Positions 25,138 to 61,925 of a stretch of 64,000 nt of DNA are shown piece after piece; position 1 is the stretch's first letter, and each line of letters begins with the position of its first letter. The DNA comes from Deltaproteobacteria bacterium. Lineage in GTDB: Bacteria; DRYD01. The notes under the pieces are model-generated. The model was not told the origin of the DNA. It saw nothing but the letters and a program-made list of their open reading frames with translations, and did no database searches. The DNA lies in contig JAPYWL010000003.1 of NCBI GenBank assembly GCA_028276365.1, forward strand, positions 18,360-82,359. The letters are read 5' to 3'. A program made the position numbers and the translations under genes.

Positions 25138-26100
25138 TTAAACTTTATTTTTGTAAAAATTAGCTATAATCTGTTTAGCAATAATATAAGCATTATAAGC
25201 AGCACCCCTTAATAGGTTATCACTAACACTCCAAAATCCTAACAAATTACTTTCTAATTTCCTTATTCTAGCTATATGAACTTCATTAGTGTTAGAAACA
25301 TTATAAGGAACAGGTAAATTAGAATTATTTAGCCAAATCTTAAGAGCTTTTGTAATATCCCCAAATTCAATTAACTCATCAATTAATTTATTATAATTAA
25401 AATCTCTTTTAGTTTTAACATAAACCACTTGACTATGAGCTCTAATAACGGGAACCCTAACAGTAAAAGGGAAAACCTTAAAATTAGAGTTAAGTATCTT
25501 ATTAGATTCAAGAATAATCTTTTTCTCTTCAGTACAAATAATATTTTCTAAGTTAGAATCATCAAAAGATCCTATAACAGGAAACAAATTATAAGCTATA
25601 GGATAAGGTAAATTTTTAGCAGTAAAATCGTTATTTTTAATTTGATACTTAAATTCTTCTAAAGCTTTTTTACCTGCCCCAGAAACAGATTGATAAGTAG
25701 CAACATAAACCTCTTCTATACCATAGTTATCTAAAATAGGCTTTAGTGGAATAACAAGCTGTATAGTAGAACAATTAGGATTAGCTATTACCTTTTTATC
25801 AGGCTTTATTTTATTTAAATATTGATTATCTAACTCGGGTACAACTAAATTAACATCAGGATCTAATCTAAAAAAAGAACTATTATCAATAACAAAGGTA
25901 TCAGCATATATTTTAGGAGCTATATATGCACTAACTTCATTATCAACACATAAAAAAACTATATCCTGACTCCTTAATTTATCAAAATCAATATTATCAT
26001 TAGAACCTATAGGGTAAATTTCCCAATCTTCATTATTTTGAATTAATTTAGCTAATTCACTACCAACTAACCCATTTATTCCTACTATAGATACTCTCAT
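25138..26100 (-). CDS. asd: Aspartate-semialdehyde dehydrogenase
   Basis: A 320-residue cytoplasmic enzyme making aspartate semialdehyde, the branch point to lysine/diaminopimelate, threonine and methionine. The NADP-binding start VSIVGINGLVGSELAKLI, the catalytic Cys in ANPNCSTIQLVIPL, YQSVSGAGKKALEE and VRVPVIRAHSQVVYV are diagnostic. There is no Shine-Dalgarno sequence: the 12 nt before the ATG are nearly all U and A, and directly before them stands the pseudoknot element at 26113-26177. Control of translation or transcription by that element is the likely regulation. The upstream gene is murG, and both serve the cell wall if the flux goes to diaminopimelate. Confidence 0.95.
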   Translation of the reverse strand: MRVSIVGINGLVGSELAKLIQNNEDWEIYPIGSNDNIDFDKLRSQDIVFLCVDNEVSAYIAPKIYADTFVIDNSSFFRLDPDVNLVVPELDNQYLNKIKPDKKVIANPNCSTIQLVIPLKPILDNYGIEEVYVATYQSVSGAGKKALEEFKYQIKNNDFTAKNLPYPIAYNLFPVIGSFDDSNLENIICTEEKKIILESNKILNSNFKVFPFTVRVPVIRAHSQVVYVKTKRDFNYNKLIDELIEFGDITKALKIWLNNSNLPVPYNVSNTNEVHIARIRKLESNLLGFWSVSDNLLRGAAYNAYIIAKQIIANFYKNKV

Positions 26101-26112
26101 AAAAAATAATAA

Positions 26113-26177
26113 GCTGGAGTATTTGTATTCCGCCCTACTTCAAAAATTTTAATATTTTAAACTACCCAGCAGGCGGT
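26113..26177 (-). promoter_or_regulatory. Pseudoknot RNA element, copy 1, upstream of asd
   Basis: Read on the minus strand: stem-1 strand CCGCC, one nucleotide, stem-2 strand GCUGGG, a 30-nt AU-rich insert that can form its own weak hairpin, stem-1 partner GGCGG, the A-rich link AAUACAAAUA, and stem-2 partner CUCCAGC (five Watson-Crick pairs and a G-U). The last base is 12 nt before the asd ATG. Three other copies in this window share the pattern. The insert marks this copy as the long variant. The downstream run UUAUUAUUUUUU means that stem 2 alone could also work as a terminator-like hairpin. Confidence 0.75.
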
Positions 26178-26215
26178 CTTTTTAATAAAGCTAATCTCTC
26201 TTTATAACTTACATA

Positions 26216-31722: not shown

Positions 31723-32064
31723 TTAAGTAGTAACCTCTACCATCCACTTAAGATAATCTAAATTACCTGCTTTAATATCAATTACAATTATCTCAGGAAC
31801 AGTATAAGAATGATATTTTTTAATAGTTTCTTCTAACTCTTCTAATTTTTCTTCAGTAGTTTTTATAATCAATAGAGCTTCTTCCTGAATTTCTACATTA
31901 CCCTTCCAAGTAAATATAGATTTTAAATTATTAATAATATTAACACAAGCAGCAAGTCTATTATTAATTAATATCCTTGCGATATTTTCAGCTTCTATAA
32001 TATTTGGGCAGGTTACAAATAAAACTTTAAAAGGAGAATTTTGTAAATTATCTAATTTCTTCAT
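31723..32064 (-). CDS. cutA: CutA-like divalent cation tolerance protein
   Basis: CutA1 family, 113 residues, a trimeric ferredoxin-fold protein linked to copper and other divalent metal tolerance. VTCPNIIEAENIARILINNRLAACVNIINNLKSIFTWKGNVEIQEEALLIIKT and YHSYTVPEIIVIDIKAGNLDYLKWM are diagnostic. There is no Shine-Dalgarno sequence; 18 nt of almost pure U/A separate the ATG from the pseudoknot element at 32083-32119. The NTP-transferase gene follows after 4 nt. Confidence 0.93.
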   Translation of the reverse strand: MKKLDNLQNSPFKVLFVTCPNIIEAENIARILINNRLAACVNIINNLKSIFTWKGNVEIQEEALLIIKTTEEKLEELEETIKKYHSYTVPEIIVIDIKAGNLDYLKWMVEVTT

Positions 32065-32082
32065 AATAAAAATATAAAATAA

Positions 32083-32119
32083 GCTGGGATATTTATATTC
32101 CGCCTACCCAGCAAGCGGT
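32083..32119 (-). promoter_or_regulatory. Pseudoknot RNA element, copy 2, upstream of cutA
   Basis: The cleanest copy. On the minus strand: A, stem-1 strand CCGCU, U, stem-2 strand GCUGGG, UA, stem-1 partner GGCGG, link AAUAUAAAUAU, stem-2 partner CCCAGC, then a U-rich stretch to the cutA ATG 18 nt later. Stem 1 has four G-C pairs and a U-G; stem 2 has six Watson-Crick pairs. The strand order (1, 2, 1', 2') is that of an H-type pseudoknot with an A-rich third loop able to lie in the minor groove of stem 1. Confidence 0.8.
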
Positions 32120-32148
32120 ATTACATTATTTTTAATTATTATATTATT

Positions 32149-32692: not shown

Positions 32693-33406
32693 TTAATGTT
32701 TATGAAGTGGATTCAATTGATGATCTACAAAATGTTTAATAAACTCAGCATATTTGTTTTCAGGTAAAGCTCCTTCTATATCATCTTCAAATACTTTTTG
32801 ATCTTTTGTTATTAGCTTTAAAACAGTTTTAGGAACACCCATTATATTATATTTAATAGCATAATCTTGAAATTCAGAAACTTCCACATTAATAGCTTTA
32901 ATATTATCACTAACAACCGAAAAAGCAGTGGAATTAATAGTCATAATAGGACAATATGGACAAGTAGGAGTAACAAATACCCATAATTCTAAAACTGCCC
33001 CATTACTCTTTAACATATTATCTATTTCTTTTACAGTATTTATAGTTTTTTCACTTATAGGTAGTTGATCATTAGCTACCATAAGAATAGAATTTAATAA
33101 CCAAGTGAACTCATAACCAGCAGGAATCCCCAAAAACTTAAAATTATAATCCTTATTTGATCTTAATATTATAGCCGGTACTTCCTTTGAAATACCATAC
33201 TTATTAGCTAACTCCACATCAACTAAAGGATTATATAAAACTAATTTTAAATTATCTAAGATTTCAGTTAATTCTTTCAGTAATTGTTCCGTATCAGGAC
33301 AATACTCACAACCTATTTTTTGGGAAAATAATAGCACTTCAGTTAGTTTTGCTAAACTTCCTACTTGTCTTTTTATTTCCTGTCTATCTTGTTCAGTAAT
33401 AAACAT
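32693..33406 (-). CDS. Two-domain protein disulfide oxidoreductase (PDO, glutaredoxin-like)
   Basis: A 237-residue protein of two thioredoxin folds. The first has CEYC (in KIGCEYCPDTEQLL), the second CPYC (in FVTPTCPYCPIM), and KYNIMGVPKTVL holds the cis-Pro. The arrangement is that of PDO from hyperthermophilic archaea and Aquifex/Thermotoga, where it shuffles cytoplasmic disulfides or reduces ribonucleotide reductase. I prefer the second ATG (33406): AGGAGGG is 7 nt before it, and only 1-2 nt before the first ATG at 33412. A pseudoknot element lies 24 nt upstream of this start. Confidence 0.9.
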   Translation of the reverse strand: MFITEQDRQEIKRQVGSLAKLTEVLLFSQKIGCEYCPDTEQLLKELTEILDNLKLVLYNPLVDVELANKYGISKEVPAIILRSNKDYNFKFLGIPAGYEFTWLLNSILMVANDQLPISEKTINTVKEIDNMLKSNGAVLELWVFVTPTCPYCPIMTINSTAFSVVSDNIKAINVEVSEFQDYAIKYNIMGVPKTVLKLITKDQKVFEDDIEGALPENKYAEFIKHFVDHQLNPLHKH

Positions 33407-33430: not shown

Positions 33431-33469
33431 GCTGTAATCATTTATATTCCGCTATTACAGCTTAGCGGT
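33431..33469 (-). promoter_or_regulatory. Pseudoknot RNA element, copy 3, upstream of the PDO gene
   Basis: On the minus strand: A, stem-1 strand CCGCUA, A, stem-2 strand GCUGUAA, stem-1 partner UAGCGG, link AAUAUAAAUGA, stem-2 partner UUACAGC. Stem 1 has six pairs and stem 2 seven. Compared with copy 2, GGG/CCC in stem 2 has become UAA/UUA and U-G in stem 1 has become U-A: both strands change together and the pairing is kept. The element begins 47 nt after the fabH stop. Confidence 0.8.
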
Positions 33470-33515
33470 AATTCCTTTTAATTTATATAATTTATAAAAA
33501 AAATTATAAAAAATT

Positions 33516-60823: not shown

Positions 60824-61582
60824 CTAAGTATTATTTAAAGCTAATTCTTCTATCCAAGCATATCCCTTTTCATCTATGTCTTTAGCTAAAGAGCTATCAC
60901 CAGTTAAAACTATCTTTCCATTTAACATTACATGAACCTTATTAGGTACTAAATATTGTAATAATCTTGAGTAATGAGTTATAAAAATAATAGAAGAATC
61001 TGGCTTAGATTCAACATATTCATAAACATATTTAACAACACTTTTAAGCCCATCAATATCAAGTCCTGAATCTATTTCATCAAGTATAGCTAACTTAGGT
61101 TTATATAATAAAACTTGTAATGCTTCAATTCTTTTACGTTCTCCACCAGAAAATCCTTCATTTAAATATCTCCTCATTGAATCCTCAGGAATCGCAAATT
61201 TCTTAAGTAAATCTATAATAGTAGACCTTATCTTAGGATAAGGTATATCTTCACTAAAATACTTTTTAGTAGTATATCTAAAGAAGTTAGCTAAAGTAAC
61301 TCCAGGAATTTCAATGGGATTTTGAAAAGCTAAATATATCCCTTTTAATGCTCTATCAGTAGTAGATAATTCATTAATTAATTCATTATCAAAAAATATT
61401 TCACCTTCAGTAATTTCATAATCAGGATTCCCCATAATTACATGTCCTAAAGTAGATTTACCACTACCGTTTCTCCCCATTATACAATGAATCTCTCCTT
61501 TATTAACTTCTAAGTTAACCCCATTTAATATTTCCTTATTTAGCTCTTTTACTTTTACTTTTAAGTTATTTATTTTTAACAT
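60824..61582 (-). CDS. sufC: Fe-S cluster assembly ATPase SufC
   Basis: SufC, 252 residues, the ABC ATPase of the SUF scaffold complex. Walker A is in IMGRNGSGKSTLGHVIMG, the signature in GFSGGERKRIEALQVLLYKPKLAILDEIDSGLDIDGLK, with the Walker B Asp and catalytic Glu. It is first in the sufCBD operon; sufS and sufU/iscU are absent from this window. There is no ribosome site before its ATG; instead a hairpin (61594-61612) and a pseudoknot element (61611-61644) precede it, so the operon is likely under RNA-level control. Confidence 0.97.
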   Translation of the reverse strand: MLKINNLKVKVKELNKEILNGVNLEVNKGEIHCIMGRNGSGKSTLGHVIMGNPDYEITEGEIFFDNELINELSTTDRALKGIYLAFQNPIEIPGVTLANFFRYTTKKYFSEDIPYPKIRSTIIDLLKKFAIPEDSMRRYLNEGFSGGERKRIEALQVLLYKPKLAILDEIDSGLDIDGLKSVVKYVYEYVESKPDSSIIFITHYSRLLQYLVPNKVHVMLNGKIVLTGDSSLAKDIDEKGYAWIEELALNNT

Positions 61583-61593
61583 TTTAGTATAAT

Positions 61594-61612
61594 TTACGCC
61601 TTTTAAGCGTAA
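61594..61612 (-). promoter_or_regulatory. Hairpin between the pseudoknot and sufC
   Basis: On the minus strand UUACGC pairs with GCGUAA around the loop UUAAAAG: six pairs and a seven-base loop, ending 11 nt before the sufC ATG. Its first two U residues are also the last bases available to pair in stem 2 of the pseudoknot, so the two structures compete at their border. The loop and next base read AAAAGG, a weak ribosome-site-like string. Confidence 0.6.
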
Positions 61613-61644
61613 CTGGTATTTTTATTCCGCTTCCAGCTAGCGGG
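61611..61644 (-). promoter_or_regulatory. Pseudoknot RNA element, copy 4, upstream of sufC
   Basis: On the minus strand: CC, then stem-1 strand CGCU (with the second C: CCGCU), A, stem-2 strand GCUGG, A, stem-1 partner AGCGG, link AAUAAAAAUA, stem-2 partner CCAGU. Stem 1 has five Watson-Crick pairs; stem 2 has four and a G-U. It lies 28 nt before the ATG with a hairpin between. It is the only copy placed far (282 nt) from the previous gene, which ties the element to the gene that follows it. Confidence 0.75.
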
Positions 61645-61925
61645 AATTTTTATTTTTTAAAACATCTTATAAAAAATACAATCATAATTTTAAAACTTAA
61701 CTTTAATCCCTTATATACAGACTAACTAAATAAAATTTCTTCTATACATTTATTTTATTTTTTAGCTGCACTATTATTGATTTCTTCCATATTTGTAGAA
61801 ATTAATTAAAATTATTTTAATTTTAAAAGTAATTTAAAATTATTTTCTTTTCAATTTCCTCTTTATTATAGAATTATATTTTTTTGACAAAAAATCCTCT
61901 TTTAAAAGAAAAAATAAATTATTAA

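Follow-up and report, generated by a model that had tools for sequence, protein, structure and literature searches.

A compact mRNA pseudoknot between cistrons, before some 68 gene families of one deep bacterial lineage

The four short elements that precede asd, cutA, PDO and sufC in the 64,000-nt stretch of DNA analyzed here (the window) belong to one RNA class. Its members are about 40 nt long, fold as an H-type pseudoknot, and stand between cistrons before some 68 gene families of a single deep lineage; relatives of the element in other phyla are sparse. Based on sequence evidence, we propose that this intercistronic, cis-acting mRNA pseudoknot may set translation of the downstream cistron, a reading to which we assign a probability of roughly 0.45. 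Here, we describe the elements and their fold, then their distribution and genomic setting, and weigh what they might do.

Four elements in the window and their fold

The consensus of the class is A-N3-CCGCY-N0-5-(P2, 4-12 bp)-L2-RGCGG-WAUANAAAW-(P2'), in which CCGCY and RGCGG are the arms of stem 1 (P1), P2 and P2' are the arms of stem 2, WAUANAAAW is the third loop (L3), and the leading adenosine is A(-4). All four window copies lie on the minus strand, each with its gene on the 3' side:

26113..26180, minus strand: asd element; A(-4) 26180; P1 5' arm CCGCC 26176-26172; P2 5' arm GCUGGG 26170-26165; long L2 26164-26135; P1 3' arm GGCGG 26134-26130; L3 AAUACAAAUAC 26129-26119; P2 3' arm UCCAGC 26118-26113
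25138..26100, minus strand: asd, aspartate-semialdehyde dehydrogenase; start codon 12 nt from P2'
32083..32122, minus strand: cutA element; A(-4) 32122; P1 5' arm CCGCU 32118-32114; P2 5' arm GCUGGG 32112-32107; L2 UA; P1 3' arm GGCGG 32104-32100; L3 AAUAUAAAUAU 32099-32089; P2 3' arm CCCAGC 32088-32083
31723..32064, minus strand: cutA; start codon 18 nt from P2'
33431..33472, minus strand: PDO element; A(-4) 33472; P1 5' arm CCGCU 33468-33464; P2 5' arm GCUGUAAU 33461-33454; P1 3' arm AGCGG 33453-33449; L3 AAUAUAAAUG 33448-33439; P2 3' arm AUUACAGC 33438-33431
32693..33406, minus strand: PDO, protein disulfide oxidoreductase, glutaredoxin-like; start codon 24 nt from P2'
61612..61647, minus strand: sufC element; A(-4) 61647; P1 5' arm CCGCU 61643-61639; P2 5' arm GCUGG 61637-61633; P1 3' arm AGCGG 61631-61627; L3 AAUAAAAAUA 61626-61617; P2 3' arm CCAGU 61616-61612
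60824..61582, minus strand: sufC, Fe-S assembly ATPase, followed by sufB; start codon about 29 nt from P2'

The PDO start used here is the second ATG (33406), which has AGGAGGG just before it and agrees with the start of the orthologue in genome G001. A small hairpin, ACGCUUAAAAGGCGU (ACGC..GCGU, window 61583-61611), separates the sufC element from the sufC start codon. The cutA element has the top score among the copies under covariance model R2.

All four copies are present where the initial annotation had placed them, and its spacings to the start codons (12, 18, 24 and 28 nt) match ours to within about a nucleotide. Its count of four is right for the window but not for the genome, which holds about 20 copies by covariance model. 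In the window, the GC-rich strings occur well above chance expectation, and GCGGAATANAAAT matches exactly at the four element sites only. With at most one mismatch, CCGCNNGCTG yields five matches in the window versus 0.61 ± 0.93 expected from shuffles; three of the five have no mismatch, and each of these three is an element.

P1 and P2 together form an H-type pseudoknot, and the fold is established by covariation. In a set of 78 copies, picked by stem-1 and L3 strings alone and thus blind to stem 2, the stem-2 pairing score was 16.8, versus 9.7 ± 0.3 with the 3' arms permuted. This confirms the compensatory change that had been read in stem 2 from the four window copies. The set includes 59 distinct stem-2 arms, all of which compensate, and the fifth pair of its stem 1 varies among C-G, U-A and U-G. 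In a set of 107 copies that have both stems and were aligned by the model, pairing holds in 97.6% of cells (77.4% shuffled), 259 cells changed on both sides (62 ± 10 shuffled), and the covariation score is 0.558, versus 0.178 shuffled and 0.04-0.14 when slid. Because the 107-copy alignment was fitted to stem 2, the 78-copy permutation is the cleaner test.

A structure parser recovered 143 copies. In the set thinned of near-duplicates, A(-4) occurs in 96% of copies by this parser, which favors A at -4; a separate count free of that bias gave 94%. In the thinned set, L3 reads W-A-U-A-N-A-A-A-W and measures 8-14 nt, L1 spans 0-5 nt, and P2 is mostly 6-8 bp. CCGC/GCGG, L3 and A(-4) are strongly conserved, the sequence of P2 is free, and L1 and L2 are not conserved; in all, about 18 positions are strongly conserved. 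L3 has a length that would allow it to run along the shallow groove of P1, with A(-4) as the 5' boundary beside P1, in the three-dimensional arrangement that we envisage.

A third helix, P0, pairs the 5' flank with L2. It is found in copies from outside the family (GGUUAGCC/GGCUAACC, GCUCAAAA/UUUUGAGC and GCCCUA/UAGGGU) and, with other sequences, in copies with a long L2 from the window's genus, where it ends 4-5 nt before P1, directly adjoining A(-4), and scores 16.6 for pairing versus 12.95 ± 0.54 permuted. The form with P0 is perhaps ancestral.

Several loci depart from the common form. In a few, among them L069, L072 and L126, stem 1 and L3 are retained but there is no convincing stem 2; in these three and in L112, CCGCY..RGCGG-AAUANAAAU appears as a plain hairpin with an SD-like sequence directly 3'. 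L112 precedes cutA of genome G004, where the knot has seemingly been lost. G001 contains a near-identical subfamily of about 15 copies (L074, L075, L078, L083, L086, L087, L091, L095-L097, L214, L217-L219), made up of CCGCCTGCAGACC..GGTCTGC with P0 UUAGCC/GGCUAA and then a hairpin, CAAAAGTGTATA..TATACACTTTTG. This subfamily looks recently spread inside one genome.

Distribution within and beyond the family

In the 1.59-Mb genome, the string GCGGAATANAAAT is matched exactly at 16 sites, and all 16 can be read as pseudoknots. The other genome of the genus has 29 matches, four sister-genus genomes have 13, 8, 3 and 7, and unrelated genomes have 0-2 each. We built a first covariance model from the four window copies, with stem 2 paired and stem 1 entered as conserved sequence, and refined it on 65 copies. 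Covariance model copies number 20 in this genome and 37, 29, 27, 12 and 26 in the other family genomes (total ~151, n = 6 genomes). One genome of the sister family, 73% complete, has 0 copies by both GCGGAATANAAAT and the covariance model. Compared by rpsD with named genomes, the family matched other phyla only, at 71% identity at best, and a search of the window's genome for 16S found none.

Among 380 further genomes, the covariance model search found three single matches. The copies outside the family comprise an argG leader (G147), a copy 5' of an E1-type dehydrogenase gene in a second genome of the same phylum, and a copy 5' of a phenylacetate-CoA-ligase-like gene (paaK) in G118 and its relatives (four out of four genomes of that group). 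These isolated copies span two other phylum-level groups and retain A(-4), P1 and a full P2, with a closely similar L3. The class thus extends beyond the family, within which it has expanded, and is sparse in other groups.

There is one weak R2 match in G395. In G025, R2 gave matches at E 0.06-0.16 that do not have the conserved L3 and were taken as chance, and pattern matches outside the family at L047, L048, L054-L057 and L063, which form no convincing pseudoknot, were rejected as class members. Viral contigs gave no match to two strict patterns, which overlook diverged copies.

Rfam 15 gave no match at the gathering threshold in the window or in 15 loci, and nothing relevant at E up to 5. 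This agrees with the initial annotation, which had recognized no known class, and none of the three outcomes that it had named against itself (no covariation, no further copies, an Rfam match) occurred. Neither the core sequence strings nor a description of the element appeared in the literature searched, which lay mostly outside subscription journals and preprints. Cis-acting pseudoknots as such are already known, and to our knowledge a pseudoknot leader is mostly dedicated to a single gene or pathway. As far as we can tell, the element is an undescribed class, and one knot reused between cistrons before dozens of unrelated genes seems new.

Position between cistrons and downstream genes

In copies without an extra hairpin, the distance from P2' to the AUG has a median of 16 nt (IQR 12-19 nt); about 35 family copies have an extra hairpin between the knot and the start codon. 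Within the sister genus, 55 of 86 copies either overlap the end of the co-directional gene before them or begin within 5 nt of it. The commonest offset from the upstream stop codon there is 3 nt, so the last A of that stop codon is A(-4). At acpP, cutA, kbl, a STAS gene and a HIT gene, the downstream gene is orthologous between genera and the upstream neighbors differ. Because the upstream neighbor changes while the downstream gene stays, the element belongs to the downstream cistron. Upstream of the elements, we found no promoter at a fixed distance, and A(-4) alone stands out; the intercistronic placement also disfavors a transcription-start element.

Placement also bears on whether the knot could be an mRNA processing or stability element, which would stop an exonuclease or position an endonuclease and so set the level of the downstream message. 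The intercistronic site, the abundant-protein genes downstream and a compact fold that stays fixed while the stem-2 sequence is free would all suit such a role, and disruption of a pseudoknot is reported to have altered mRNA stability in another system (PMC9458429). However, a decay barrier would not need to lie as close to the start codon as 12-19 nt, and we regard this role as distinctly unlikely.

The element does not sequester the Shine-Dalgarno (SD) sequence. AGGA, GGAG or GAGG occurs in P2' in 0 of 102 copies, pairing of P2' with the ribosome-binding site (RBS) region is below that of permuted arms (7.51 vs 7.99 ± 0.15), and neither P2 arm shows alternative pairing with the RBS or the 5' flank above permuted arms. 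SD use was 9/55 for element genes and 41/142 for control genes in one genus, and 31/86 and 39/131 in the other. Because these frequencies differ in no consistent direction, the knot is not simply an SD substitute.

These results qualify the suggestion in the initial annotation of a small pseudoknot riboswitch or protein-binding leader: a compact knot near start codons is what we find, but a search for the usual platform of a translational riboswitch gave none. A metabolite or ion riboswitch would have to be a very small H-type aptamer, comparable in size to preQ1-I or SAM-II, that senses a general growth signal. Size, H-type topology and an A-rich L3 are as in preQ1-I (PMC11625349), the roughly 18 conserved positions would be consistent with a binding site, and the lone copies before argG, E1-type dehydrogenase and paaK genes of other phyla resemble ordinary regulatory leaders. 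Yet the downstream genes share no pathway, L1 and L2, where preQ1-I seats its ligand, are not conserved, and the SD-free P2', the P2 arms lacking alternative partners and the negative Rfam search also argue against it. We consider a riboswitch very unlikely.

The 141 downstream proteins fall into 68 clusters, for which several gene names were assigned by reading the sequence only. They include ribosomal proteins (S2, S4, S15, L5, L7/L12, L17, L31 and L32), trigger factor (tig), ribosome recycling factor (frr), the omega subunit (rpoZ), RecA, SSB, ACP (acpP), GAPDH (gapA), malate dehydrogenase (mdh), asparaginyl-tRNA synthetase, Jag, CutA, Asd and SufC, as well as acetyl-CoA synthetase-type enzymes, a branching enzyme and a Csm2. 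The loose theme of thiol, Fe-S, metal and aspartate-family metabolism first seen in the four window genes therefore fails, as the downstream genes across the family are a broad housekeeping set. The element precedes rpsD in all six family genomes, always between rpsK and rpsD, and is found at jag in five of six and at cutA in five of six. Ribosomal-protein genes are mildly enriched (8/68 clusters; P of about 0.002, assuming 52 in 1500 genes).

This gene set raises the possibility of a protein-binding leader, in which the surface of P1, L3 and A(-4) would be the site of an RNA-binding regulator, e.g., S4 or Jag/EloR, whose binding would either allow or prevent translation of a regulon related to growth. 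The candidate regulators' own genes carry the element (rpsD 6/6, jag 5/6), Jag belongs to an RNA-binding protein family, ribosomal-protein genes are enriched as above, and small pseudoknot sites on ribosomal-protein mRNAs are generally known, as for S4 in the Escherichia coli alpha operon. The set is, however, far broader than known ribosomal-protein regulons and turns over between genera, so that we see this as possible but unlikely. If the element does bind a ligand or protein, a very large regulon would thereby be defined in an uncultured group.

Seven downstream families are common to both genera (P of about 2e-5 under rough assumptions). The window's genus has the element at recA, and three sister-genus genomes with a readable start, one of them with a degenerate form, lack it there; thus, gain and loss occur. 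At L328 (G005), 5' of recA, a degenerate copy, CCGCT..AGGCGGAGTATAAAAT, is followed by a strong SD and is apparently a decaying element. The same leader precedes CRISPR type III-A csm2 at L189 (G005) and L101 (G003), odd company for housekeeping genes.

The about 15 near-identical G001 copies (CCGCCTGCAGACC..GGTCTGC plus hairpin) are what a spreading repeat would look like, and the whole class could in principle be a functionless DNA repeat, mobile or selfish, whose folding is fortuitous. Against this, the 59 distinct stem-2 arms all compensate, orthologous positions are kept across genera (the seven shared families), and copies are found on the coding strand, a short way ahead of start codons. 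A functionless repeat is hardly credible.

Proposed role and comparison with known systems

We prefer an open start region and action on initiation because there is no fixed promoter, no SD occlusion and no simple SD replacement. The element would act inside operons on the downstream cistron, from just before its start codon. The rigid knot would leave the start region single-stranded, could mark an internal ribosome-entry region or insulate it from the upstream cistron, and might be recognized either by a dedicated RNA-binding factor or directly by the ribosome. To judge from sequence, the effect on translation would most likely be activation or insulation rather than occlusion. The hairpin between knot and start in about 35 copies makes a strict ribosome-docking model less compelling, and the conserved L3, P1 and A(-4) also fit a ligand- or protein-binding site. 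More tentatively, and on balance doubtfully, the knots may amount to a genome-wide, gene-independent initiation signal, in which a triplex-type intercistronic knot, read by either the ribosome or a dedicated factor, would work together with the SD as a routine component of the translation of internal genes in this bacterial family. Whichever reading holds, this is a small element with covariation, and reporter constructs could test it directly.

Among known RNAs, preQ1-I is a small H-type pseudoknot with an A-rich L3, which has the SD in or docked to the knot, or else a terminator (PMC11625349). The element is likewise a very small H-type pseudoknot mRNA leader with an A-rich third loop directly before a start codon. 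Unlike preQ1-I, it does not conserve L1 and L2 (the preQ1-I ligand pocket), its P2' is free in sequence and never contains the SD, it has no Rfam match, and dozens of copies precede unrelated genes; no queuosine-pathway gene was recognized among the named members of the 68 clusters. Should its action be at translation initiation, it would be a bacterial intercistronic element that differs from the known SD-occluding leaders, the preQ1 classes among them (PMC11625349).

The dicistrovirus intergenic-region (IGR) IRES is also an intergenic pseudoknot RNA directly before the start codon of a second cistron, but it is viral, about 150-200 nt long and has three knots. Initiation from it in E. coli is reported not to depend on its structure (PMC9458429).

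Type III toxin-antitoxin RNAs (ToxI/CptI) resemble the element as compact pseudoknots (about 35-45 nt) whose A-rich linker is conserved. In contrast to these, copies of the element are single, dispersed intercistronic leaders, with no tandem repeats and no ToxN-like gene seen adjacent. ToxN (PF13958) had no match in the six family genomes, and control genomes gave no match either.

Pseudoknot sites on ribosomal-protein mRNAs are established for S4 (E. coli alpha operon) and S15 (rpsO). Here too, the knot lies beside the translation start, and the genes for S4 and S15 carry the element; those leaders serve one operon each, whereas this element precedes some 68 gene families.
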